From Sphaerochaeta halotolerans (GTDB lineage Bacteria; Spirochaetota; Spirochaetia; Sphaerochaetales; Sphaerochaetaceae): DNA of 64,000 bases. Both the position numbers and the translations under genes were made by a program. The stretch is taken from the NCBI RefSeq assembly GCF_003429665.1, contig NZ_QUWK01000002.1, forward strand, positions 62,001-126,000, written 5' to 3'. The notes under the pieces are model-generated. The model ran no database searches. It saw only the letters and a program-made list of their open reading frames with translations, and was not told the origin of the DNA. Positions 9,642 to 22,378 of the stretch are shown piece by piece (positions within the stretch are counted from its first letter, which is position 1; each line of letters starts with the position of its first letter).

Positions 9642-10349
9642 TTAGACAGGGACAACACTTCGGTTATGTCCTCGCAGTCCTACGTGGACACCCTGGTTGA
9701 TAAGCTGAGTTCTCTCCGGATGAGCAAGAATCCATTTGTTGTTTTTCAGCAACAACTTCGATTCGGGGTCTTTGCTTCGAGAAACTTTCTCAGCCAAACG
9801 CTCGGACAGTGGCTCATTTGTACCCTTGGGAAGCACAATGATGGACTTGAATCCTTCCTTCGATACCCCACAGGGGGCAAGATGCAGGACATTAGCCTCA
9901 ACGATGACAGCTGAACCTTTTGGGAAAAAGAACAGTTCAGCGGAAAGCGTGTCAACGGTGTTGAACTCCTTCAATGCAGAGAACGGGGTTAAGAACTGCA
10001 GGCAATCGGTAACTGCGATGAATAGTTCTGGGCTCTTGTGGTACTCCATCCCATTGATGCTTTGATTCTTTCCATTACAGTACCCAATTTGGATGTCTTG
10101 GCCACCATAATAGAGTTTGAGTTCCTCTACCAGTGCCTTCTCTTCCAGCTCTGGAAGGAATGTCTCATAGATACTGTCATTTTCAGGAATATTGGTCACG
10201 CGATCGGCAAGAGCAACCAAGTATGCTGTATCAAGGTCATGGAGAATCCTTCCATACTGTCTAAAACGGGAAGACTCAATAGAGTGAATGTTCTCGTTTG
10301 GATTACTCTGCACAAGATCCAACGGAACGTGAAATTGGGATATTTTCAT
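9642..10349 (-). CDS. DUF4867-type protein, last gene of the sulfoquinovose operon
   Basis: The 235-residue soluble protein looks like the DUF4867 family (opening with a sugar-enzyme-like KISQFHVP, then FRQYGRILHDLDTAYLV). It contains a cupin-like patch GSAVIVEANVLHLAPCGV near residue 150. ATG 10349 follows GAGGTGA; an upstream in-frame start at 10364 would overlap that site. No function is proven for the family. I recall an unassigned DUF4867 member in Firmicutes sulfoquinovose clusters, which fits its place here, four bases behind the exporter gene. A role as mutarotase, epimerase or accessory isomerase for sulfo-sugars is only a guess. Confidence 0.65.
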   Translation of the reverse strand: MKISQFHVPLDLVQSNPNENIHSIESSRFRQYGRILHDLDTAYLVALADRVTNIPENDSIYETFLPELEEKALVEELKLYYGGQDIQIGYCNGKNQSINGMEYHKSPELFIAVTDCLQFLTPFSALKEFNTVDTLSAELFFFPKGSAVIVEANVLHLAPCGVSKEGFKSIIVLPKGTNEPLSERLAEKVSRSKDPESKLLLKNNKWILAHPERTQLINQGVHVGLRGHNRSVVPV

Positions 10350-10353
10350 TGTA

Positions 10354-11097
10354 TCACCTCGCAAATAATAGCATCACTATACCAGTAGCCAGCAACATGG
10401 AAAAGACGATCAAGGAAAAATGACGAGCTTCAACCTTGTCATGAATATATTCACCTGCAATAATCCCCGCTATCAAAAAAGGGACAAGAGACAAGGTGGT
10501 TTTAGCAACCGGTGGGGTTAGGGAACCCTCAATGAGATACCCTGCTATGATGATGGTGTTCAGTGTGGTCCAAAGAAGGCAGAGTGTTGCCCTGAACCTG
10601 CCCTTGTCTGGCAGTGTTCTCGTTGCATACAGCACCACAAGCGGACCACCTGAGGAGAAAACCCCGTGGATGATGCCTCCAAGAAAGAGCAGCAAATAAT
10701 AGGGAAGTGCTTTGTGCCCTGTAGGTGGAGAGCTTTTTTCTGTCCTTCTTGCCTGACGATAGAGTTGTGTGAGTGAGACTACAATGATAAAGACAGCAAG
10801 TAGCAGGTTCAGCGTACCACTTTGTTGTGAGCGAAACAGGTACATGCCTATAGGGAGCCCAAGCAGCATCAAAGTGGTGATAATGGTATATTGCTTCCAG
10901 TCAATTTTGGAGAAATTTCGTATCACAATATACACTGCCAACAACCAAGCCAATATGGTAATGACTTTTACTGCTGTCTTTACTCCCAGCAACGCACTGA
11001 CAAAGGGCATGGCAAGGACTGAGCATCCAAAGCCAGTAACCGCTTCAAGGGAATGGGTCACAAAGACTACCAGTCCACTGAGGACCAAGGTGGTCAC
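10354..11097 (-). CDS. TauE/SafE-family sulfonate exporter
   Basis: The 247-residue protein is almost wholly membrane, with about eight hydrophobic segments. THSLEAVTGFGCSVLAMPF at the start and GGIIHGVFSSGGPLVVLY near residue 140 are the paired repeats of the TauE/SafE (DUF81) family, whose members export sulfite, sulfoacetate or other C2-C3 sulfonates. The start overlaps the dehydrogenase stop by four bases. In the proposed sulfo-TK route its cargo would be isethionate, the end product that the cell cannot use. Confidence 0.85.
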   Translation of the reverse strand: MTTLVLSGLVVFVTHSLEAVTGFGCSVLAMPFVSALLGVKTAVKVITILAWLLAVYIVIRNFSKIDWKQYTIITTLMLLGLPIGMYLFRSQQSGTLNLLLAVFIIVVSLTQLYRQARRTEKSSPPTGHKALPYYLLLFLGGIIHGVFSSGGPLVVLYATRTLPDKGRFRATLCLLWTTLNTIIIAGYLIEGSLTPPVAKTTLSLVPFLIAGIIAGEYIHDKVEARHFSLIVFSMLLATGIVMLLFAR

Positions 11098-12263
11098 AGT
11101 TTTGCCTCCAAGAGAGAATAGAGGTCCTCCATTGGTAGAGGGGGTGTCTGGTTGTGCAGTTTTGCATCTGTTTCAACTCGGGAGAATTCCTTCCGGATTG
11201 TGTTACGGTCAAGATTCAGTGAGAGATCCTTGAATGTTCTTGGAATTTCCAGATGGGAGAGCAAGGATGCTATGTCACTCTTGAGGGCGAAGACCAGGTC
11301 ATCTGTTTTCTCTTGTTCCGGATGCATCAGCTTGCCGAGTTTTGCAAGTTCCTCACGGTTCTGAGTATCCCTTACAGCCCAATCGAAGACTTCGAGCATG
11401 GTAAATGCACAGGAGAGCCCGTGCGGTATATGCCAAGACTCAGAGAGAATGAAGGAAATGGCATGTCCTGCAGCTGTTCCCGTCAGATTGAAGGCGATTC
11501 CTGCTTCGTTGGACGCCTTGAGCATTTCCTCCTGCAGGGAGCTTCTCTCTTGGTTGTTTACCGTAGCATCATAGAGCTTTGGGATTGTCTGGAGAACCGT
11601 ATGTGCGGCGTCCCTTGCGCATTCCCTGGTATTATCAGTGCTGTTCTTGTTCCATATGGATTCCAGGGCATGGTCCAGTGCATCCAATCCTGTTGCTGCG
11701 CAGAGCTTTGGAGGAACTGAGTCGAGCAGGGAAGCTATCAGGACTGCCGTATGTGCACTCATAAGTGGGGACCCCAAGGTGTGCTTTCTCCCCGTACTAT
11801 CACTGTAGACCCCAACTTTTGTGACCTCTGAACCAGTGCCAGCAGTAGTAGGAATCAGAACCAATGGCAGGGAACGGGTGGTGATGGGTTTGCCCTGCAA
11901 ATATGACTCCAGTGAGCCTCTATTGGTCATCAACATTGCCAATGCTTTTGCAGAGTCAAGTACACTACCGCCTCCAATACCGAGAATTATATCGGTATTC
12001 GAGAACCGGTCGTCATGAAACATTGACTCAATATCTATGGCCCTCGGGTTTGGTTGCACCTGGCTGAATACCTCAACTGGGGTGAGGGCTGCCAGTTCAT
12101 CAATCAAAACCTGTTTCCCTTGTATGGGTGCGTCGTCAGTGACAACACTGACATGCAACAATCCTGGCTTCATTGCAGTATATCGCAGTATCCTTTCAAG
12201 AGCTGACCCCTGCATACTGGTAAAGCTCAAGATGTGAACCGGACTGAGCAGACTGCTGATCAT
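11094..12263 (-). CDS. sqwF: Iron-containing alcohol dehydrogenase, probable sulfoacetaldehyde reductase
   Basis: The 389-residue protein is a group III (iron) alcohol dehydrogenase: NAD site GGGSVLDSAKA near residue 98, TTAGTGSE near residue 140, and metal ligands within GLDALDHALE, GTAAGHAIS and SWHIPHG. Related enzymes such as SarD of Bilophila reduce sulfoacetaldehyde to isethionate. Its position between the RpiB-like isomerase and a sulfonate exporter in a transketolase-based sulfo-sugar operon supports that role, which would re-oxidise NADH. Four-base overlaps with both neighbours indicate tight coupling. The symbol follows the Clostridium sulfo-TK naming as I recall it and is inferred from context. 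Confidence 0.78.
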   Translation of the reverse strand: MISSLLSPVHILSFTSMQGSALERILRYTAMKPGLLHVSVVTDDAPIQGKQVLIDELAALTPVEVFSQVQPNPRAIDIESMFHDDRFSNTDIILGIGGGSVLDSAKALAMLMTNRGSLESYLQGKPITTRSLPLVLIPTTAGTGSEVTKVGVYSDSTGRKHTLGSPLMSAHTAVLIASLLDSVPPKLCAATGLDALDHALESIWNKNSTDNTRECARDAAHTVLQTIPKLYDATVNNQERSSLQEEMLKASNEAGIAFNLTGTAAGHAISFILSESWHIPHGLSCAFTMLEVFDWAVRDTQNREELAKLGKLMHPEQEKTDDLVFALKSDIASLLSHLEIPRTFKDLSLNLDRNTIRKEFSRVETDAKLHNQTPPLPMEDLYSLLEAKL

Positions 12264-12730
12264 AAAAAGTTCTCCTCTTCAATGGCCTGGACCTGTTTGA
12301 ATGCATTACTGAGGAAATCCTTCTTGAATTCCATTTTCTGGGTGAATGCCATTGCCAGCCAGGCATCCACAATTTGAATGCCAAGGAAGGGAGCGGTAAT
12401 CCATCCTCCCATGGTAATGACATTTGCATTGTTTACGATTTTCGCCCGTTCGGCACTGAAGATGCTATCCACCACACAGGCATAGATGCCTTTGTACTTG
12501 TTGGCAACAATGGCCATACCCTGTCCAGTCCCACATATCAAGATGCCTTTCTCTGCTTTCCCCTCCTGGATGGCTCCAGCAACCTTGGGAGCCTGTATGA
12601 AGTAGGGTTGGGGGTTTTCAGCAGATTCAATGCCGAAGTCAAGGACTTCATATCCCTGCTCTTGGAGGTGTTTGGCGATCTCTGCTTTGAGTGGGAATCC
12701 CGAAAGGTCTGATGCAATTGCTATGTTCAT
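12260..12730 (-). CDS. sqwI: RpiB/LacAB-family isomerase, probable 4-deoxy-4-sulfoerythrose isomerase
   Basis: The 156-residue protein has the RpiB/LacAB fold signature, with the catalytic cysteine in ILICGTGQGMAIVANK near residue 66. The phosphate-recognition features of ribose-5-phosphate isomerase B are changed: the usual DHxG near residue 9 is DLSG, the usual GSR after the second strand is GGW, and the C-terminal arginines are absent (KKDFLSNAFKQ). That suggests a substrate without the normal phosphate. In the sulfo-TK pathway the homologue SqwI converts 4-deoxy-4-sulfo-D-erythrose to the ketose. The surrounding operon of transketolase halves and sulfonate exporter fits. Confidence 0.8.
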   Translation of the reverse strand: MNIAIASDLSGFPLKAEIAKHLQEQGYEVLDFGIESAENPQPYFIQAPKVAGAIQEGKAEKGILICGTGQGMAIVANKYKGIYACVVDSIFSAERAKIVNNANVITMGGWITAPFLGIQIVDAWLAMAFTQKMEFKKDFLSNAFKQVQAIEEENFL

Positions 12731-13665
12731 GATTTGCTCCTTATAGAAAGTACTTTCCTTACAATCTCTTCTGCAGTGAGCTTATAGTACGTTTGCAGCC
12801 ACGCTTGTGTTCCTACCTGACCAAACTCGTCATGGATGCCTACCATCTCCATGGGGGTGGGGTAGTGCGTGCTGAGCAAGTTGGCCACTGCAGCTCCAAG
12901 CCCCCCTGCTATCTGGTGGTTCTCGGCAGTTACGACTGCCCCGGTTTTCTTTGCATATGAGAGAACCAGGTCTTCATCCAGAGGCTTGACTGTATGCATG
13001 TCGATGACAGCTGCCGAGATGCCTTGTTCTTCCAGTAATGCTGCCGCCTTGATGGCCTCAGGAACAAGAATGGCTCCCAGAGCAATGATGGTTACATCAG
13101 TACCGTCCTTGAGGACCTTTCCTTTCCCCAGGGTGAATACTTCATCTTCTGCATACAATGGCTGTATTGCCTTTCGATGGAGCCGCATGTAGGTACAACC
13201 GTATAGTTTGGCGCATTCTTGAACCAAAGCCTTCAAACTCACAGGATCGGAGGGTTCCAGAATAGTAAGATTCGGAATCATGCGCATCAGGCCAATGTCC
13301 TCGAAGGGCATGTGTGTCCCTCCATTGAAGGCTGCGCTGATGCCAGGGTCTGTTCCCACCAGTTTTACATTCAGTTTTGCGTAGTTTGCCGAAATGAAGA
13401 ACTGGTCGAAGACTCTCCGACTTGCAAAACAACCAAAGGTTGCAGCAAACGGGATTTTCCCCGCTGCACTGAGTCCGGCTGCCAAACCGACCATGTTTGC
13501 TTCTGCAACGCCGACATCAACTGCACGTTCAGGGAATTGTTGTTTGAACGGTATTGTGCCCGATGCTTTCATAAGATCGGCTTCCAAGACCATGATTCTT
13601 TCATCGCTGTGTGCCAGACCAAGGAGGGTATCACAATAGACGCCTCGCATCTCTTTCGTTTCCAT
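12727..13665 (-). CDS. sqwH: Transketolase C-terminal subunit, probable 6-deoxy-6-sulfofructose transketolase
   Basis: The 312-residue protein holds the pyrimidine-binding and C-terminal domains of a split transketolase: VDVGVAEANMVGLAAGL near residue 48 with the catalytic Glu, TDPGISAAFNGGTHMPFEDIG near residue 107, and the C-terminal AVVTAENHQIAGGLG. With its partner it should bind TPP at the subunit interface and pass two-carbon ketol units. In the sulfo-TK route the same enzyme acts twice, on 6-deoxy-6-sulfofructose and on 4-deoxy-4-sulfoerythrulose, with glyceraldehyde 3-phosphate as acceptor. An ordinary pentose-pathway role is the alternative, but the operon argues against it. Confidence 0.82.
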   Translation of the reverse strand: METKEMRGVYCDTLLGLAHSDERIMVLEADLMKASGTIPFKQQFPERAVDVGVAEANMVGLAAGLSAAGKIPFAATFGCFASRRVFDQFFISANYAKLNVKLVGTDPGISAAFNGGTHMPFEDIGLMRMIPNLTILEPSDPVSLKALVQECAKLYGCTYMRLHRKAIQPLYAEDEVFTLGKGKVLKDGTDVTIIALGAILVPEAIKAAALLEEQGISAAVIDMHTVKPLDEDLVLSYAKKTGAVVTAENHQIAGGLGAAVANLLSTHYPTPMEMVGIHDEFGQVGTQAWLQTYYKLTAEEIVRKVLSIRSKS

Positions 13666-13677
13666 GTTGTCTCTCTC

Positions 13678-14499
13678 CTATTCGAGTGCCGCGATGGCTT
13701 CGTTTGCAGTGTTCAGGTCGAAGGCCATATTATGGTTCGCTACATTGCCTTCACAGAATGCAGCCCCCTTCCCTTTTATGGTGTCAAGGATGATCATCGC
13801 TGGTTTCCCTCTCTGCAATTTTGCTGTTTCGATTGCATTGTCCATGGCCGAAAGGTCATGTCCATCAATGCGTTGGGTGAACCAACCGAAGCTGTTCCAT
13901 TTTCCCTCGATATCCCCAAGGTTTAGGATTTCATCGGTGGTTCCATCTATCTGCATTTTATTGTAATCGGTGAAGGCGATGAGATGGTCCAGCTGATAAT
14001 GTGAAGCAAACATGGCGGCTTCCCAGTTCTGCCCTTCCTGGCTCTCCCCATCCCCGATGATTGCATAGACGTATGTATCTTTCTTATCCATCTGTATCGC
14101 ATAGGCAAGACCACAGGCAGCAGAGAGTCCTTGTCCAAGTGATCCTGTAGTCATATCGATGCCCTTTGTTTTGGTTCGGTCGCAATGACTGGGGAGATTG
14201 GTACCACCTTGGTTGAGTGTTTTTAATTCCTCCATCGGGAAAAATCCCTTCAGTGCAAGTGTAGCGTAGAGAGCCGGGCCTGCATGTCCTTTGGAAAGTA
14301 CCAACAGGTCTCTTTCTTCCCATACTGGATTGGTGGGATCGATTCGCATTACCTTCCCGTAGAGAAGGGCGAGAAGATCGACAATCGATAGGGCTCCTCC
14401 AATATGTCCGACACCAAGATTGCCGATGGTGAACAGCGTATTTTTGCGAATTTCCTTGGCAAAGGATGCCAGTTGTTTGGATTGTTCTGAGGCGAGCAT
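13678..14499 (-). CDS. sqwG: Transketolase N-terminal subunit, probable 6-deoxy-6-sulfofructose transketolase
   Basis: The 273-residue protein is the TPP-diphosphate-binding half of a split transketolase. The TPP motif begins GDGESQEGQNWEAA near residue 149 and ends at DYNKMQIDG; LGVGHIGGALS and SKGHAGPALYATLALKG supply conserved histidines. It is the first gene of a six-gene reverse operon running to 9642, preceded by a GAGAGG site and by a promoter carrying a palindrome shared with the sqwD operon. Paired with the following gene it forms a complete enzyme of about 585 residues. Confidence 0.84.
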   Translation of the reverse strand: MLASEQSKQLASFAKEIRKNTLFTIGNLGVGHIGGALSIVDLLALLYGKVMRIDPTNPVWEERDLLVLSKGHAGPALYATLALKGFFPMEELKTLNQGGTNLPSHCDRTKTKGIDMTTGSLGQGLSAACGLAYAIQMDKKDTYVYAIIGDGESQEGQNWEAAMFASHYQLDHLIAFTDYNKMQIDGTTDEILNLGDIEGKWNSFGWFTQRIDGHDLSAMDNAIETAKLQRGKPAMIILDTIKGKGAAFCEGNVANHNMAFDLNTANEAIAALE

Positions 14500-14516
14500 A
14501 AGGATACCTCTCTAAT

Positions 14517-14537
14517 AGTTTCTTAGTGAAAGTAACT
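14517..14537. promoter_or_regulatory. Operator 1 of the sulfoquinovose island
   Basis: AGTTTCTT-AGTGA-AAGTAACT is an inverted repeat (7 of 8 positions) that covers the -10 box and start of the sqwG promoter. The same site with the same spacing occurs at 15830-15850. Together they give AGTTACTT-N5-AAGTAACT as a consensus, most simply bound by the ROK regulator encoded between them. Confidence 0.75.
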
Positions 14538-14563
14538 ATAATCCATACGAACAACCTTGTAAA
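14535..14563 (-). promoter_or_regulatory. Promoter of the reverse sqwG operon
   Basis: On the reverse strand TTTACA (14563-14558) and TATAGT (14540-14535) are 17 bases apart, about 40 bases before the sqwG start codon. The operator overlaps the -10 box. Confidence 0.6.
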
Positions 14564-14622
14564 GCTACTTCCTGTGGATTTTTTTCCTAGATGGGATTAG
14601 ACTGAGCGAAAAGGAAGGATAT

Positions 14623-15786
14623 ATGCAAGGCAATCCGCTCAGAACGGCTGATTTACGGGTACATAACCAGAACATTGTACTCTCCATGATTCATGCTACC
14701 GGTAGGCATGGGATCAGTCAGTCTGAGGTTGTACAGAAAACTGGGTTGAAAGCTCCTACGATTTTCCGAATTTTTTCCTCATTGGAGGAAGATGGCTTGA
14801 TTGAATCAATCGAGGGAGGGAGTGAGGACTCCACCATCCGAAAGGGACGCCGTCCAGTTTTTTATGTAGTGTCCGAGAATGCCCGATTCACCATAGGACT
14901 TGAGTTCTGGACCGCTTTTCTCTCTCTTGGTGTGTTCAATTTCCAGGGAGAAAGAATCCACTCAGCAATGCATCCCCTCCCGGAGCATGTACAAGCACAG
15001 GAAGTGACAGATCTCATTGTCACTGAGATTGAACGTGTACTATTTGATTTACACATTGAGAAGGAACGTGTAATAGGAGTGGGAGTTGCTGCTCCAGGAC
15101 AGGTCGATCTCGAACGGAAACGGGTACGCTACTATCCAAGAATAGAGGGGATGAAGGACATTGCCTTGGTTGCAGAGTTGGAGTCCCGTTTGGACATTCC
15201 TGTCATGATCCACAACAACTGTAGTGCCCTTGCATTGAGTGAATACCGTCACGGGGGGTATGACCACCAAGGGAGTATGTTCACATTCCTGCTTAGAACC
15301 GGGGTCAATGGTGCATTTGTGCATGATGATGAAATCTATGTGAATAGCGGAAACCAGACAATCGAGACAGGTCATATTCCAATCAATGCTGATGGACCAA
15401 GGTGCAGCTGTGGTTCACGAGGTTGTTTGCAGGCCTATCTGCAGGACCTCGATCCAAACTCATTGGATTTACGACTCGCGCTTTTTGAGGGGCTCGATGC
15501 AAAATTGCAGGCAGGAGATCCGGTTGCTAGGCGTACGATTGAGCGAGCTGCAGGATATCTTGTGGTTGCCATCAGAGTGCTGATGAGGCTTTTTGCACCC
15601 AAGTCATTCCTGTTCGTGGGGTGCTGCGATGTAGTTGCAGAGGCAATTCGAGACCAAGTTATTCGATTGCTTGATGAACCTGATGCGTTCAGTGTTGAAC
15701 CCCCACGTATTTTTGCGACAGCCTACGACCCTCTTCTTGCACAGAAGGGTGCTTCTGATTTGGTGTTGCAGGAGTTCTTCCGGTAA
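14623..15786 (+). CDS. ROK-family transcriptional regulator of the sulfoquinovose island
   Basis: The 387-residue protein has an N-terminal winged helix (HGISQSEVVQKTGLKAPTIF, about residues 29-48) and a C-terminal ROK sugar-kinase-like domain. The zinc motif CSCGSRGCLQAYL near residue 264 and the GHIPI that precedes it are typical of ROK repressors such as XylR and NagC. It lacks a clear phosphate-binding start of true kinases, so sensing rather than catalysis is expected. It is transcribed between the two SQ operons, divergent from sqwG and 110 bases ahead of sqwD. Two identical-architecture palindromes on those promoters are its likely targets; the inducer would be SQ or a sulfo-sugar intermediate. 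Confidence 0.85.
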   Translation: MQGNPLRTADLRVHNQNIVLSMIHATGRHGISQSEVVQKTGLKAPTIFRIFSSLEEDGLIESIEGGSEDSTIRKGRRPVFYVVSENARFTIGLEFWTAFLSLGVFNFQGERIHSAMHPLPEHVQAQEVTDLIVTEIERVLFDLHIEKERVIGVGVAAPGQVDLERKRVRYYPRIEGMKDIALVAELESRLDIPVMIHNNCSALALSEYRHGGYDHQGSMFTFLLRTGVNGAFVHDDEIYVNSGNQTIETGHIPINADGPRCSCGSRGCLQAYLQDLDPNSLDLRLALFEGLDAKLQAGDPVARRTIERAAGYLVVAIRVLMRLFAPKSFLFVGCCDVVAEAIRDQVIRLLDEPDAFSVEPPRIFATAYDPLLAQKGASDLVLQEFFR

Positions 15787-15803
15787 AAAATTTCAGATTT
15801 TTA

Positions 15804-15832
15804 TTGACGAGTCCTTGTTTGTGGTATTTACT
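15804..15832 (+). promoter_or_regulatory. Promoter of the sqwD-ABC-yihQ operon
   Basis: TTGACG (15804-15809) and TTTACT (15827-15832) are separated by 17 bases, in the gap between the ROK gene and sqwD. Confidence 0.55.
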
Positions 15833-15850
15833 TACTTATGGAAAGTAACT
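15830..15850. promoter_or_regulatory. Operator 2 of the sulfoquinovose island
   Basis: ACTTACTT-ATGGA-AAGTAACT is an inverted repeat (7 of 8) with the same length and right arm as the site at 14517-14537. It overlaps the -10 box and the predicted start of the sqwD transcript, so a bound repressor would block it. Confidence 0.75.
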
Positions 15851-15895
15851 AAATTGAGCACCTTTGGTTTGCTCATTCGGAATGAGGAGTAGTGT

Positions 15896-17212
15896 GTGAA
15901 ATATCCTGTAACCCTTGGTGTGGTGTGTCTTGCAAGAACGACCTATGACTATACAGCTGCAGAGGAGATCTATGCAAAGATTCGTAGTGAGCTACGGCAC
16001 CTAGAAGGGGTAACCTGGTATTGCTTGGAGCCCCTCGTCATCTCCCAGGAAGATGGGCTTGCTGCTGCGAAAGAACTAGCAACCAAGCAAATTGATGGCT
16101 TGGTCTGCATTTCAGGGACGTTTCATCTCGGTCATCTGGTACTGCAACTCAAGCGAGAACTTCCTGTACCGATTCTGCTTTGGGGACTCCCAGAACTCCC
16201 CTACAATGGTGGGAAAATTCGTCTTAACTCGGTATGTGGTGTAAACCTGAACGCCAGTAATCTCTACAAGAGTGGGTATGATGACTACACTGTCATTGTA
16301 CAGCATACAATCGATGAGGACTGGGTTGATGCAATTCGGGTTATCAAAGCAATGAAGATGGCAAAGATAGGAATCCTAGGGTATAGAGCCGATGGATTCT
16401 TCAATGTCGGAGTGCAGGACAACCTCCTATATGGCCAGACTGGTGCATTGGTCGACCACTATGAACTGAAGGATGTGCATGAGTATCCGGTTACCGAAGC
16501 ACAAGTCTCCTCTCGGATGCAGCAGATACGAGAGACTTTTGATGTATCAACACTTTCAGCATATCAGCTGGACCGAGTAGTCCAACTGGCTGCTAAGCTT
16601 GACGCCTTTTACCACGAGATGAACCTTTCGGCATTGGCAATTCGATGCTGGCCGGAATTCGCCCGCGATTTTGGGGTCTCCCCTTGTGCAGCGATGAGTT
16701 TGTTGCAATCTGAGGGAATGATCCTTGCCTGTGAGGGAGACATCGACGGCGCTCTCTCCATGATCGCCCACCATGCGCTAGGGGCAGAGACACCTTTCCT
16801 CTTTGACTTCTCCCAGGTAGATTTCCAGCAGGACTTTGCTCTGTTCTGGCACTGTGGTGTTGCTCCCTGCAACCTATGGGATGGTACCTGCAACCGCAGC
16901 CTTGACACCTACTTTGCGGGAGGAAAGGGAGTCACTGCAGATTTTGTTCTCAAGAGTGGGGAGCTCTCGGTTCTTCGCATTGATTCAGCGAGAGGAGGCT
17001 ACCGCATGTTCCTTCAAAAGGCTACCGCAGTTCCCATGGAAAAGTTGTTGAAGGGAACCTATATGAAGGCACGCTTTGAACGACCGGTAAAAGAGGTGCT
17101 TGATTTGGTCTTGGACAATGGCCTCGCTCATCATTCCTCGGTGGTCTATGGGACCTATATCAGACCATTGGAGTTGGTGGCCAAGTTGAAGGGATGGAAA
17201 GTCATCCAATAA
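15896..17212 (+). CDS. sqwD: L-fucose/arabinose isomerase-like protein, probable sulfoquinovose isomerase
   Basis: The 438-residue protein belongs to the L-fucose/L-arabinose isomerase superfamily: an N-terminal Rossmann-like half (VTLGVVCLARTTYDYTAAEE) and a C-terminal domain with LAIRCWPEFARDFGVSPCAAM, a form of the conserved RCWPE metal-site segment, and EGDIDGALSMIAHH. Such proteins interconvert aldoses and ketoses with a divalent metal. Known SQ isomerases of the SqvD/SqwD type are, as I recall, of this fold and turn SQ into 6-deoxy-6-sulfofructose; the operon with a sulfoquinovosidase supports this. Start is GTG 15896 behind GAGGAG. Substrate is inferred, not shown. Confidence 0.75.
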   Translation: MKYPVTLGVVCLARTTYDYTAAEEIYAKIRSELRHLEGVTWYCLEPLVISQEDGLAAAKELATKQIDGLVCISGTFHLGHLVLQLKRELPVPILLWGLPELPYNGGKIRLNSVCGVNLNASNLYKSGYDDYTVIVQHTIDEDWVDAIRVIKAMKMAKIGILGYRADGFFNVGVQDNLLYGQTGALVDHYELKDVHEYPVTEAQVSSRMQQIRETFDVSTLSAYQLDRVVQLAAKLDAFYHEMNLSALAIRCWPEFARDFGVSPCAAMSLLQSEGMILACEGDIDGALSMIAHHALGAETPFLFDFSQVDFQQDFALFWHCGVAPCNLWDGTCNRSLDTYFAGGKGVTADFVLKSGELSVLRIDSARGGYRMFLQKATAVPMEKLLKGTYMKARFERPVKEVLDLVLDNGLAHHSSVVYGTYIRPLELVAKLKGWKVIQ

Positions 17213-17265
17213 GGTGCGATTTAGTTTGCATTCTGTGCAAAACTACGATACAAAAGGAGATTGCT

Positions 17266-18531
17266 ATGATGAAAAATTCACGACTCATTGCAGTGTTGCT
17301 ACTGCTCTGTTTACTCTCCCCCTTGGCAGCCCAGGGGCAAGCGGAAAGTGGACAGCAAAAAGAAATCGAACTGAGATGGGCAAGCATCTGGGTTGGAAAT
17401 GACAGCAAGGCCCCAGCCGTGGAAGCGTTGGTGAAAGAGTTCAACACCAAGAATGCCGGTAAGATCAAGGTCGTCATTGAGCCACAGCCGGACTACAATG
17501 CCTATGAACAGAAAGTTCGTACCAGTTTGGCTGCAGGGCAAGCCCCGGCAGACATTTTCACCATCAAGTTCAACCCGACTACTGCGACGTTCTACCAATC
17601 GGATCTTCTCATGGACTTCCAGGGAAAGCTTGATGATGCTTGGAAGAGCACCTTTGATGCTGGTTCCCTGGAGCAATCAACCGTTGACGGGATGCTCAAG
17701 AGCTTGCCGATGGAGACCGCCATTCTGCCGATCTGGTACAATATGGATGCATTGAAGAGTGTAGGTGTAAACACGATTCCTGCAACAGTACAACAGATGT
17801 ATGATACGTTTGATAAACTCAAGGCAGCAGGAATTGCCCCAACGAGCCAAATGACTGGTGATACCAATGCCTGGACCAGCATGATTTGGTTCAGTCATTT
17901 TGCAGTGTCCCTTGGTGGACCGAATGTTTGGGACAAGCCTTTTACCGATCCAGCATTTGTAGAGGCTGCCAAGTTGATCAAGAAAATGATCCAAGAGTAT
18001 TCTACTGCTGACGCTGTTGGACTCGGAGCTGGTGGAAGTGGTGGGCATTTTCTTGCCGGTCGTACCGCTGTCTTCTCCAATGGCCCTTGGTACGCAGGAA
18101 GAGCTGACCTTGCGGCTACGCCGTTCTTTGATTCGATCAAGATTGGTGGATTACCAGCGGTTGGCGAATATGAGGGCATCATGATAAGCCGTTTGCAGGC
18201 AAACATCTGTGCCGCTTCCAGCAAAGATGCAGCCAAGGAACAGGCAATCGTCAGCTTCCTGAAGTTCCTGACCAGTCCTTCCTCCATTGCTAAGATTGCT
18301 GAGACCAGTGGTGCAATGTTCGCGATCAAGACTGATTATCGACCAGTGAACAACCTGCAGAAGCAGTTCTACGATGTCAATGCAGCTGCTTCAACCACTG
18401 CATTTGACCTGGAAGCTGCCCTCGGATCCGAGGTCACTCTCGAGTTTGCCCAGCAGCTTGGGGCTCTGGCCCTTGACCGGATCAGTGCAGAGGAATTCTG
18501 TGCCTTGGTTGATCGCAAGATCGAACACTAA
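17266..18531 (+). CDS. ABC sugar-binding protein, probable sulfoquinovose or SQ-glycerol
   Basis: The 421-residue extracellular solute-binding protein (family 1) begins with a signal peptide (MMKNSRLIAVLLLLCLLSP, cut near AAQGQAES). The mature protein shows the family pattern: LRWASIWVGNDSKAPAVEALVKEF, then GQAPADIFTIK and an AVFSNGPWYAG hinge region. ATG 17266 follows AAGGAG by six bases. It stands between the isomerase gene and two permease genes and is followed by a strong stem-loop. Given the sulfoquinovosidase in the same operon, the cargo is probably SQ-glycerol or SQ; the sequence alone does not prove it. Confidence 0.85.
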   Translation: MMKNSRLIAVLLLLCLLSPLAAQGQAESGQQKEIELRWASIWVGNDSKAPAVEALVKEFNTKNAGKIKVVIEPQPDYNAYEQKVRTSLAAGQAPADIFTIKFNPTTATFYQSDLLMDFQGKLDDAWKSTFDAGSLEQSTVDGMLKSLPMETAILPIWYNMDALKSVGVNTIPATVQQMYDTFDKLKAAGIAPTSQMTGDTNAWTSMIWFSHFAVSLGGPNVWDKPFTDPAFVEAAKLIKKMIQEYSTADAVGLGAGGSGGHFLAGRTAVFSNGPWYAGRADLAATPFFDSIKIGGLPAVGEYEGIMISRLQANICAASSKDAAKEQAIVSFLKFLTSPSSIAKIAETSGAMFAIKTDYRPVNNLQKQFYDVNAAASTTAFDLEAALGSEVTLEFAQQLGALALDRISAEEFCALVDRKIEH

Positions 18532-18552
18532 GAGTAATAGCTGTTTATTCCT

Positions 18553-18580
18553 CATGCTGCCACCTTCGGGTGGCAGTATG
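18553..18580 (+). other. Intercistronic stem-loop after the SQ binding-protein gene
   Basis: CATGCTGCCACC and GGTGGCAGTATG form a 12-bp stem with one G-U pair closed by the very stable TTCG tetraloop, 21 bases after the binding-protein stop. It is placed where such structures raise the level of binding protein over permeases by protecting the upstream mRNA or by partial termination (TATCTTTTTCC follows). Confidence 0.75.
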
Positions 18581-18605
18581 GTATCTTTTTCCTGAGGAGT
18601 CCACG

Positions 18606-19499
18606 ATGCAAGCAGTTGGTATACGAAATAGATGGATATGGAGCGCAAGAATTTTGTTCTTGCTTCCAGTAGCATTACTATTCTTTTTCTTCTTCATCTA
18701 TCCCTTCTTCTTCACTGTATTCACCAGCTTCACCAGTTGGCGAGGTATCGGTGCGATGAAGTTTAATGGAATCAAGAACTATACCAAGTTGATTACAGAC
18801 CCTACCTTTCAGAAAGCGCTGAGAAACAATATTGTCTGGGCTTTGTCCCAAGGGTTGATCCAGGTTCCCCTGGCATGTCTGGTTGCCATGATATTGGTTC
18901 GAAAGCCATTCGGCTGGAGAGGATTGAGAACCATCTATTATCTGCCTAATGTCATCTCTACGGTTGCCTTGGCCATGGTCTGGGTTGCCATTTACAACGT
19001 CGATGGACCATTGAATGCAATTCTTTCCGGTCTTTTCGGAATGGAGAAGCATAATTGGCTGGGAAACCCTGATACCGCCCTGTTTGCCGTGATTTTCCAG
19101 ACAGTCATTTATATCGGATACTTCATGATTGTATTGTTGGCCTCTGCAATGAATATCCCCCGTTCACTCTATGAAGCCGCTGAGATTGATGGAGCCAGCA
19201 CCTTGGTTCAGGAGATTAACATCACCCTTCCCATGCTCCGTGGTACCCTAATCACCACCATGACCCTTGCCATGGCGTATGGCATGCGCCATTTTGAAGC
19301 GACATTCCTAATGACTGGTGGCGGCCCAGCATATGCAACCACCACCATGGGCATCGATCTGTATCTGAAAATGGATGCCTTGCGTTATAGTGAGGCAAGC
19401 ACCAGCGGGGTGTTCCTGATTATCATGGGAACCTTGGTCATTACCTTGTTGCGGAAACTCTTTGGTTCCTCAGACCCCATGAGTGAAATGGCACAATAG
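18606..19499 (+). CDS. ABC sugar permease 1 (MalF-like), sulfoquinovose operon
   Basis: The 297-residue membrane protein has six predicted helices, with a Phe-rich first helix (VALLFFFFFIYPFFFTVF). The ATPase-docking loop is YEAAEIDGASTLVQEINITLP near residue 210, the EAA motif of binding-protein-dependent permeases. ATG 18606 follows GAGGAG. It pairs with the next gene to form the channel of the importer. No ATPase gene is found in this operon. Confidence 0.9.
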   Translation: MQAVGIRNRWIWSARILFLLPVALLFFFFFIYPFFFTVFTSFTSWRGIGAMKFNGIKNYTKLITDPTFQKALRNNIVWALSQGLIQVPLACLVAMILVRKPFGWRGLRTIYYLPNVISTVALAMVWVAIYNVDGPLNAILSGLFGMEKHNWLGNPDTALFAVIFQTVIYIGYFMIVLLASAMNIPRSLYEAAEIDGASTLVQEINITLPMLRGTLITTMTLAMAYGMRHFEATFLMTGGGPAYATTTMGIDLYLKMDALRYSEASTSGVFLIIMGTLVITLLRKLFGSSDPMSEMAQ

Positions 19500-19511
19500 G
19501 AGCACATCCAA

Positions 19512-20348
19512 ATGAAACATTCCCCAACATCAATCATCGGCAACACTCTCAAATGGATTCTCCTGATTAGCTTGTTGGCATTGGCATTGCTTCCCCTGCT
19601 CTGGTTGCTGGTAAGTTCGCTGAGAACCAACCTTGAACTGCAAACCGACCCCTTTGGGTGGCCGCAGAAGTTTCAATGGGTCAATTATGCCAATGCATTG
19701 GCCATGGCAAGCCTTCCCCGCCTGTTGCTCAATTCAGTTTTCGTGGCAGTAGTGACAGTGGTGCTCAACAGTTTGGTGACCTCCATGGGGTCCTTTATTC
19801 TTGCAAGAGAGCATTTCAAGGGAAGGGATGTCATTTACACCATCCTTACCGCGGGGGTTTTGGTTCCTGTGATATCCTTCATGGTTCCCTATTTCTCCAT
19901 GATTACCCGAAGCGGTCTTTACAACACCTTGCTTGCCTTGATACTTGTATATACTGCTGTGAATATTCCTGTTTCCATATTCTTGGTAACTGCTTTCATG
20001 AAATCCATTCCGAAGGAGTTGGAAGAAGCTGCCATCATGGACGGCTGTGGATTCTTCAAGCGCTTTTCGATGATCATCCTTCCGCTCTCCCGATCTGGGA
20101 TTGTGACAGCAGCAACGTTCTGCTTTATTTACTCTTGGAATGAGTTTGTCATGGCTATGCTGCTGACTAGTTCGGTTGAATCGAGGACCATACAGCTGGG
20201 AATCAAATTCTTCTCCAGTCAATTTATCACCGATTATAGCAGTATGTATGCTGCGGTCATCATCACCATCATACCCAGCATCCTTGGATATGTATTCCTT
20301 CATGATAAGATCATCGGTGGCTTGACCACCGGTGGAGTGAAGGGGTAG
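19512..20348 (+). CDS. ABC sugar permease 2 (MalG-like), sulfoquinovose operon
   Basis: The 278-residue protein has six predicted helices and the EAA loop LEEAAIMDGCGFFKRFSMIILP near residues 172-193, as in MalG-type permeases. It follows permease 1 by 12 bases behind AGGAG and ends two bases before the sulfoquinovosidase start, so all are read from one message. Energy must come from an ATPase encoded elsewhere, probably a shared MsmK/UgpC-like subunit. Confidence 0.9.
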   Translation: MKHSPTSIIGNTLKWILLISLLALALLPLLWLLVSSLRTNLELQTDPFGWPQKFQWVNYANALAMASLPRLLLNSVFVAVVTVVLNSLVTSMGSFILAREHFKGRDVIYTILTAGVLVPVISFMVPYFSMITRSGLYNTLLALILVYTAVNIPVSIFLVTAFMKSIPKELEEAAIMDGCGFFKRFSMIILPLSRSGIVTAATFCFIYSWNEFVMAMLLTSSVESRTIQLGIKFFSSQFITDYSSMYAAVIITIIPSILGYVFLHDKIIGGLTTGGVKG

Positions 20349-20350
20349 GT

Positions 20351-22378
20351 ATGTTTAGTCATACGTATCAGGATGGGAAGCTCTCTGTTTTTTTCAATCA
20401 GATGAAAATCCTTGAACATACATCTGAGCATCCTGTTCTGATGCTCCAAAGAAACCAAGCAACGATTGACATGTACCGTGGCAACTACTTCATTGAAGAG
20501 AACGTAGAGGAAACGCTGGGTCTTCGGTTGTGCACCATCAACGAAGCTTATGTTGAAGGCAGGGGAGTGTGTATCCTCCACTTTTCCAGTGAGATGTATC
20601 ACATTACCTGTGAGCTCAGCGAACAGGATGGTCGCCTGATAATCCGTTTTTCCCCGCTTCCCCAACCGTATAATCGACTGGTACTGCATATATGGGCAGA
20701 GGAGAAGGAACACATCTGGGGTTGTGGGGAGCAGTTCTCTTATTTTGATCTCCGTGGGCGAAACTATCCATTATGGACCCAAGAGCAGGGGGTTGGGAGA
20801 AACAAGCATACATTGATCACCCAGCTTGCTGATAAAAATGATCGGGCAGGAGGAGATTACCATACCACGTTCTATCCCCAAGCAACCTTTGTTTCAAGCA
20901 GGGGCTATTTTCTCCACGCAAACACAGACGGGTATGCTGACTTTGATTTTTCCCATGAACACTATCACCGTTTGTTTTTCTGGGAGGTCCCTTCTTCCTT
21001 GGTACTTTCGGTGAAGCCATCCCTGCTGGAGGTTGTCCAAGATATTTCTTCCTTGTTGGGTCGGCAACCTCTGCTCCCAAATTGGGTCTATGACGGAATC
21101 ATCTTGGGTGTTCAAGGTGGAACGAAGGTCCTTTTGGATAAGCTTGCATTGATGGAAGCAGTCGGTACCCCCGTGATTGGTATCTGGATTCAGGATTGGC
21201 AGGGAGAGAAATACACGAGTTTCGGCAAGCGACTTCGGTGGAACTGGCAGTGGGACAAGCAGCTTTATCCTGAACTTGATCATGTGATTGAAATGCTGAA
21301 GCAACGCGGAATAGGTATTTTGGGATACATCAATCCCTACGTGCTCAAGGACTACTCGCTATTTGAGGAAGCTGCAGGAAAAGGATACCTTGGAAAAGAC
21401 AGCCAAGGAAAACCTTACCTGGTTGATTTCGGTGAGTTTGATGCAGGCGTGGTGGACTTTACAAATCCTGAAGCGGTTCGGTGGTATAAGAAGGTCATAC
21501 AGCGTGAGTTGATCGATCTGGGATTGCGCGGTTGGATGGCTGACTTTGGGGAGTATCTTCCCCATGATATTACCCTCTATAATGGACGGTCGGCACTTCT
21601 GGAACATAACCCTTGGCCTGGCTACTGGGCACAGGTTAATAAGCAGGCAATTGTCGAATCCGGGAAAGGTGACGAACTTCTCTTCTTCATGCGCTCTGGT
21701 TCTGCACAAAGCTTGGCATCCTGTCCTATGATGTGGGCCGGTGACCAGAATGTTGACTGGAGTGAGGATGATGGACTTCCCTCTGCCCTGTGTGCAGCGC
21801 TTTCCCTCGCCATGAGTGGGGCGGGATTGCACCATAGTGACATTGGTGGCTATACGACGCTCTATGGGATGAAACGGAGCAAGGAATTACTGCTCAGATG
21901 GTGTGAGTTTGCTGTCTTTACCCCCATGATGCGCACGCATGAGGGTAATCGTCCCCAGGAGAACTGGCAGTTTGACTCTGATGAGGAAACCCGTCGTTTC
22001 TTTGCTGCAATGACCAATCTTCACGTACAGTTGAAACCCTACCTCCAGGAGGCAGTAAGGGAGAATGCTGAACAAGGCATCCCCGTGATGCGACCCTTGT
22101 TCCTGTACTACCCAAAGGATCCTTTTTTCACCATCAAGGATTCCTATCTTCTCGGCCGGGACTTGTTGGTAGCACCGGTAATGGAAGAGGGAGTGACTAG
22201 TAGGAATCTTACACTTCCTCCCGAGCGATGGGTACATCTCTTTACCAATGAGAGTTTCCAAGGAGGAAGTTGTCGTGTAAATGCCCCCCTGGGAATGCCT
22301 CCTGTCTTCTTCCGTGAAGACAGTGCCTTTGCTTCTCTATTCCGTTCGATCAATACAGGAACGGAACCGCTTCCTTGA
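20351..22378 (+). CDS. yihQ: Sulfoquinovosidase (GH31, YihQ type)
   Basis: The 675-residue enzyme is glycoside hydrolase family 31 and agrees with E. coli YihQ along most of its length as I recall that sequence. It releases sulfoquinovose from SQ-glycerol or sulfolipid. The nucleophile is Asp398 in GWMADFGEYLP (YihQ Asp405) and the acid/base is Asp465 in WAGDQNVDWS (Asp472). The residues that read the sulfonate are all present with the same offset of 7: Gln281 in WIQDW, Arg294 and Trp297 in FGKRLRWNW (YihQ Gln288, Arg301, Trp304). HHSDIGGYTTL and FTPMMRTHEGNRP are also typical. No signal peptide, so it acts in the cytoplasm on imported SQ-glycosides. Its end overlaps the convergent nuclease gene by 29 bases. 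Confidence 0.95.
   Translation: MFSHTYQDGKLSVFFNQMKILEHTSEHPVLMLQRNQATIDMYRGNYFIEENVEETLGLRLCTINEAYVEGRGVCILHFSSEMYHITCELSEQDGRLIIRFSPLPQPYNRLVLHIWAEEKEHIWGCGEQFSYFDLRGRNYPLWTQEQGVGRNKHTLITQLADKNDRAGGDYHTTFYPQATFVSSRGYFLHANTDGYADFDFSHEHYHRLFFWEVPSSLVLSVKPSLLEVVQDISSLLGRQPLLPNWVYDGIILGVQGGTKVLLDKLALMEAVGTPVIGIWIQDWQGEKYTSFGKRLRWNWQWDKQLYPELDHVIEMLKQRGIGILGYINPYVLKDYSLFEEAAGKGYLGKDSQGKPYLVDFGEFDAGVVDFTNPEAVRWYKKVIQRELIDLGLRGWMADFGEYLPHDITLYNGRSALLEHNPWPGYWAQVNKQAIVESGKGDELLFFMRSGSAQSLASCPMMWAGDQNVDWSEDDGLPSALCAALSLAMSGAGLHHSDIGGYTTLYGMKRSKELLLRWCEFAVFTPMMRTHEGNRPQENWQFDSDEETRRFFAAMTNLHVQLKPYLQEAVRENAEQGIPVMRPLFLYYPKDPFFTIKDSYLLGRDLLVAPVMEEGVTSRNLTLPPERWVHLFTNESFQGGSCRVNAPLGMPPVFFREDSAFASLFRSINTGTEPLP

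Follow-up and report, generated by a model that had tools for sequence, protein, structure and literature searches.

A ROK-family protein as predicted local repressor of the sulfoquinovose island of Sphaerochaeta halotolerans, acting through two 25-bp operators

A sulfoquinovose (SQ) island in the 64-kb window (the whole 64,000-nucleotide stretch of DNA analysed) is very likely under the control of a local repressor, a ROK-family protein encoded between its two operons, which would act on the sulfo-transketolase (sulfo-TK) genes through two 25-bp operators and come off them on binding SQ or a close derivative. In the proposed mechanism, a ROK dimer would bind both operators, each of 10-bp arms around a 5-bp spacer; these straddle the -10/start region of the two outward operons, so that bound protein would block RNA polymerase. 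SQ or a derivative such as 6-deoxy-6-sulfofructose would then enter the former sugar-kinase pocket and release the protein, upon which the genes for uptake, hydrolysis, isomerisation, cleavage and export would come on together. Binding of the sites by ROK, repression and the identity of the inducer are what we infer from sequence.

The island and its two operators

The island (9642-22378) consists of two outward operons on either side of the ROK gene (14623-15786, forward strand), whose product combines, by profile, alignment and model, a winged helix with a degenerate sugar-kinase fold; the enzymes around it are named by homology. On the reverse strand lie the N-terminal half of a transketolase (TKn; SqwG-like, PF00456, 13678-14499), its C-terminal half (SqwH-like, PF02779/PF02780, 12727-13665), an RpiB/LacAB-type isomerase (SqwI-like, PF02502, 12260-12730), an iron-type alcohol dehydrogenase (SqwF-like, sulfoacetaldehyde reductase, PF00465, 11094-12263), a TauE/SafE exporter (SqwE-like, PF01925, 10354-11097) and a DUF4867 protein (PF16161, 9642-10364), of a kind which is common in sulfoglycolysis clusters and to which, in the accessible text of a 2025 paper (PMC11968277), no function could be assigned. 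On the forward strand follow a sulfoquinovose isomerase-like protein of the SqvD/SftI type (SQiso, 15896-17212; 196 bits with NF048012, below that NCBIfam model's own cut-off of 700), the solute-binding protein of an ABC transporter (SBP, PF01547, 17194-18531), a permease found by profile search (18570-19499), a second permease (19512-20348), so named because it adjoins the first, a position which homologues keep, and a GH31 sulfoquinovosidase-like glycosidase of the YihQ type (PF01055, 20351-22378; 916 bits with PRK10426, above the cut-off of 553). The SQ isomerase-like protein, split transketolase, RpiB-like isomerase, iron-type dehydrogenase and exporter make up the sulfo-TK set, and by homology the island thus encodes this known pathway. 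The home genome encodes another split transketolase at a separate locus (L217:6387-8146, G000:C5), whose halves share 63% and 57% identity with those of the SQ pair and which has no SQ neighbours within the 16 kb examined.

The sequence-only reading had proposed that the ROK gene is flanked by two palindromes of equal arms and spacer; both are present exactly where it placed them, AGTTTCTTAGTGAAAGTAACT at 14517-14537 and ACTTACTTATGGAAAGTAACT at 15830-15850, with the ROK gene between them and one mismatch apiece to the proposed consensus, AGTTACTT-N5-AAGTAACT. The sites are real and the arms were drawn too short: symmetry is kept over 14515-14539 (O1, heading the transketolase operon) and 15828-15852 (O2, heading the isomerase/ABC/GH31 operon), and a 25-bp form, TTA(C/G)TTACTT-N5-AAGTAA(C/G)TAA, describes the predicted operator better. 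O2 has a second, overlapping register 4 bp upstream, at 15824, which scores 13.6 bits against 35.5 for the main one; for registers at this offset, the isomerase operators examined in the genus give 10 to 19 bits and the transketolase-side operators -8.5 to 11.7 bits. Judging by its title, a 1994 paper by Dahl reports xyl operators that overlap in tandem, four bp apart.

Each palindrome had also been said to overlap a -10 box. This is clear for the transketolase operon promoter, TTTACA-N17-TATAGT (14535-14563, reverse strand, with its -10 at 14535-14540 under O1), which is found by promoter scan and conserved in the alignment; for the isomerase operon it depends on a probable promoter read by eye, TTGACG-N17-TTTACT (15804-15832, forward strand, boxes at 15804-15809 and 15827-15832), which is missing from the consensus scanner's list because the scanner demands A at the second -10 position. 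The TTGACG box together with ATTTACTTACTTAT is invariant in 14/14 aligned genus loci. Upstream of ROK, a block conserved through most of the genus, TTGTAAAG..ACTTC.TGTGGATTTTTT...TAGACT (~14560-14605), may hold the ROK promoter, with no convincing -35/-10 pair assignable within it; in the alignment of genus loci no operator overlaps this putative promoter, so that the usual autoregulation is not visible and would, if any, be indirect.

Within the window, the shorter consensus has two matches at up to three mismatches and no others, compared to a mean of 0.21 in dinucleotide shuffles, of which 1 in 100 reached two; this figure alone is weak because the consensus was drawn from the same two sites, and the claim is carried by the comparative evidence. 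In its 25-bp form, again at up to three mismatches, the motif occurs in the 2.93 Mb home genome at the two SQ sites alone (reversed control, 1), rather than at unrelated promoters, where its frequent occurrence would have counted against a dedicated regulon. We thus reject a global regulator, as no third match exists. The looser 21-mer, at up to two mismatches, finds three more places; the reversed control has 10 and 8 matches, which puts these at chance level.

Co-occurrence of sites and ROK gene across genomes

At E<=1e-40, 28 of the 139 genomes in the order carry a ROK homologue, among them 16 of the 26 in the genus. A site precedes TKn in all 15 ROK-bearing genus genomes that have this head on the contig; in G104 the contig stops before TKn, and a 19.9-bit site stands at the equivalent place. 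At the SQiso head the count is 15/16 (in G106 on a second contig), the exception being G093, where no orthologous isomerase adjoins ROK and where TKn, a TctC/TctA transporter with a distant isomerase, and the ABC operon each have a site ahead of them. In this SQ cluster (L093:11443-16839), an aldose-epimerase, TctC, TctA and a 25%-identical isomerase replace the usual SQ isomerase. The ten ROK-less congeners have no SQ-linked site. The genomes are related, so these counts are not independent; in the alignments of genus loci, 16 on the transketolase side and 14 on the isomerase side, arms and spacing are kept while the flanks drift.

The exact core TTACTT-N5-AAGTAA has 34 forward and 10 reversed matches in the 26 genus genomes; 29 of the 34 are SQ-linked, and five are not (two in G092, one each in G093, G099 and G103). 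The two G092 matches, whose neighbours by eye are a TRAP-like transporter gene and a phosphorylase-like gene, score 18.5 and under 7 bits with the matrix described below and were set aside; so were the other three, which belong to another kind of symmetric element, adjacent to a tyrosine-recombinase-like gene (Pfam-supported in L091 only). This element, near CTACTTACTT-N5-AAGTAAGTAG (L090:1655-1679, L091:2044-2068, L092:186-210), occurs in three genomes of the genus, of which two lack the SQ ROK, has an SmpB-like gene alongside in two loci, and is perhaps a recombination site or the operator of the recombinase. Separately, in G099 (L209:7337-8350) a truncated transketolase half runs directly into permease 2, on a contig without the transketolase N half, ROK, isomerase and SBP, by deletion or misassembly.

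Beyond the genus, a symmetric 25-bp matrix built from 14 distinct genus sites only was applied to 60 held-out upstream regions from other genera and L087, with 200 shuffles each. The floor value of p=1/201 is reached by 24 of the 60, a set in which some divergent regions are represented by two rows each and the three L094 rows duplicate L050. With the L094 rows left out, floor p is reached at the operon heads by TKn in 7/9, SBP in 4/5, SQiso in 4/8 and ROK in 7/15 regions; internal genes with upstream gaps never reach it (permeases 0/12, one of them an L094 repeat; GH31 0/8; RpiB 0/1). The sites also move with rearranged operons, as in Ca. Thalassospirochaeta (L159), where they stand at three heads, and at the new heads in G093 and G112. 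The matrix fails at both TKn heads of L060 and in L051, L052, L058 and L061, and is weak in L053. The g21/g3 clade carries another palindrome, TTTTC-N5-GAAA(A/G), a pattern picked after the sites were seen, in 5/5 ROK-bearing clusters (L051, L052, L053, L055, L058). In G112, a second contig (L087:3610-3760, G112:C323) holds a copy of the isomerase promoter, operator and apparent start codon, which lies next to a GH4-family gene and is followed, ~0.3 kb downstream, by a second GH31 (41%) and an MFS_2 transporter; it looks like a promoter capture and a possible expansion of the regulon.

The proposal of a ROK regulon for the SQ island thus holds up as a prediction, with sites that track the ROK gene across genomes and recur at SQ operon heads in other genera. 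Conceivably the palindromes serve another regulator, global or specific and unlinked, while ROK acts elsewhere, and the operator-free promoter of the ROK gene would fit this, as would the fact that binding of the sites by ROK is itself a prediction; we consider it improbable, since the only two sites of the home genome both flank ROK, their geometry is that of a xyl-type ROK operator, and sites are absent both from transketolase pairs outside SQ clusters (L207, L208, L210; 69-79% identical) and from the two g21 SQ clusters without a detected ROK, L212 and L213, where the matrix finds nothing of at least 10 bits and the clade's own palindrome is found in 0/2. Genomes G126 and G135 are 80% and 86% complete, so that ROK might lie elsewhere in them. 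In the clusters without ROK, a GGDEF-domain gene (by Pfam in L212 only) stands just upstream of the isomerase (L212:4209-5309, L213:11649-12749).

ROK regulators are not all repressors, and ROK might bind these sites as an activator or dual regulator; this is less probable still, as both operators lie over the -10/start region, in a position to block polymerase, and the nearest solved relatives are called repressors. That the sites reflect conserved promoter architecture or chance AT-rich symmetry, bound by no protein, is very improbable: the palindrome is indeed AT-rich and overlaps the -10, and the isomerase -10 is weak, but arms and spacing outlast the flanks, operon heads rather than internal genes reach floor p, and exact forward matches outnumber reversed ones. 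We retain ROK as a probable local repressor.

The ROK protein

The protein has the build of a ROK regulator, with an N-terminal winged helix (MarR_2/HTH_IclR matches at residues 21-62, below cut-off) and a C-terminal ROK domain (PF00480 at residues 123-351, E 3.3e-26), which the structural model (mean pLDDT 90.6, pTM 0.87) and its fold bear out; the top fold match is the operator-bound ROK repressor Lmo0178 (5f7q, TM 0.86). The ExGH motif and the zinc-type CxCGxxGC motif are present, E248, G250, H251, C261 and C268 being invariant in 27/27 aligned homologues and C263 conserved in at least 90%. It is not an equivalog of NagC (114.7 bits vs 650) or Mlc (85.5 vs 530) by the NCBIfam models.

Positions 199 and 225 we take to belong to the kinase site, from the profile alignment and general ROK-kinase chemistry. 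The position of the catalytic Asp is N199 in 27/27 aligned homologues; of 83 generic ROK ORFs from the loci of the matches listed, 69 have Asp here and 4 have Asn. R225, likewise invariant in 27/27, takes the place of the first Gly in the GTG loop; none of the same 83 ORFs has Arg there, and kinases have the loop Gly. At a third position the protein has Trp96, in place of the Asp or Gly of most generic ROKs. By alignment, N199 and Trp96 mark the protein as a regulator and not a kinase, that is, a putative degenerate ROK sugar kinase turned regulator. The distant Spirochaetota members L099, L100 and L159 keep W96/N199/R225; L099 and L159 are in sulfo-TK clusters with operators, and L100 shows no SQ gene, on a contig that starts 272 bases before the ROK match. 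Among the matches listed in the contig search, those of at least 34% identity are confined to Spirochaetota (L097-L100, L159) and the others reach at most 31%, which lends no support to ROK as a phylum-spanning SQ regulator.

These substitutions allow the tentative suggestion, which we hold at somewhat less than even chance, that the Spirochaetota clade is a sulfosugar sensor with two rebuilt positions facing C6, Asp to Asn199 and Gly to Arg225, such that Arg225 would grip the sulfonate at C6 of SQ in the place in which kinases grip phosphate. The clade-invariant R225 also favours SQ as the putative inducer, although Arg225 may simply mark the loss of ATP binding rather than a sulfonate ligand.

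Relation to known systems

The sulfo-TK pathway and ROK repressors with operators of this kind are both already known. The enzyme set is, by homology, the same as that of Clostridium sp. MSTE9 and the Sphaerochaetaceae, the pathway having been reported in Spirochaetes (PMC12890257) and in rumen Sphaerochaetaceae (PMC13219744); the accessible parts of these two papers contain neither 'regulator' nor 'repressor', and those of the Faecalicatena paper speak only of a 'repressor candidate' whose family is not named. The open-licence literature, outside which most subscription papers lie, yielded no description of a regulator of the sulfo-TK pathway and no pairing of it with a ROK repressor. The genes for SQ, a plant sulfosugar, would very probably be on only when needed; the analysis names a protein, defines a 25-bp operator and suggests point mutants for experiments, and could supply an SQ-responsive switch for biosensors.

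As a local regulator beside SQ genes, the ROK protein is predicted to resemble CsqR (YihW) of Escherichia coli, described in the accessible texts (PMC5816610, PMC10991401) as local to its SQ gene cluster; CsqR is, however, an unrelated protein of the DeoR family and serves the sulfo-EMP pathway. Lmo0178 of Listeria monocytogenes, a ROK repressor linked to alpha-glucan in the available text (PMC9104551), is the top sequence match (E 3.6e-35) as well as the fold match to the operator-bound form, but is 21-23% identical, belongs to another pathway and has Gly in the loop where the Spirochaetota clade has Arg225. The operator itself is closest in plan to that of XylR in Bacillus subtilis, given in the accessible text (PMC12034463) as ten palindromic bp on either side of five central bp, TTAGTTTGTTTGGGCAACAAACTAA: both have 10-bp arms and a 5-bp spacer and share the outer TTAGTT/AACTAA, whereas the inner arms are ACTT/AAGT here and TGTT/AACA in xyl. 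The sites here likewise lie over the -10/start region, and the island holds SQ genes with no linkage to xylose genes, so that the same operator design would control SQ genes here and controls xylose genes there.
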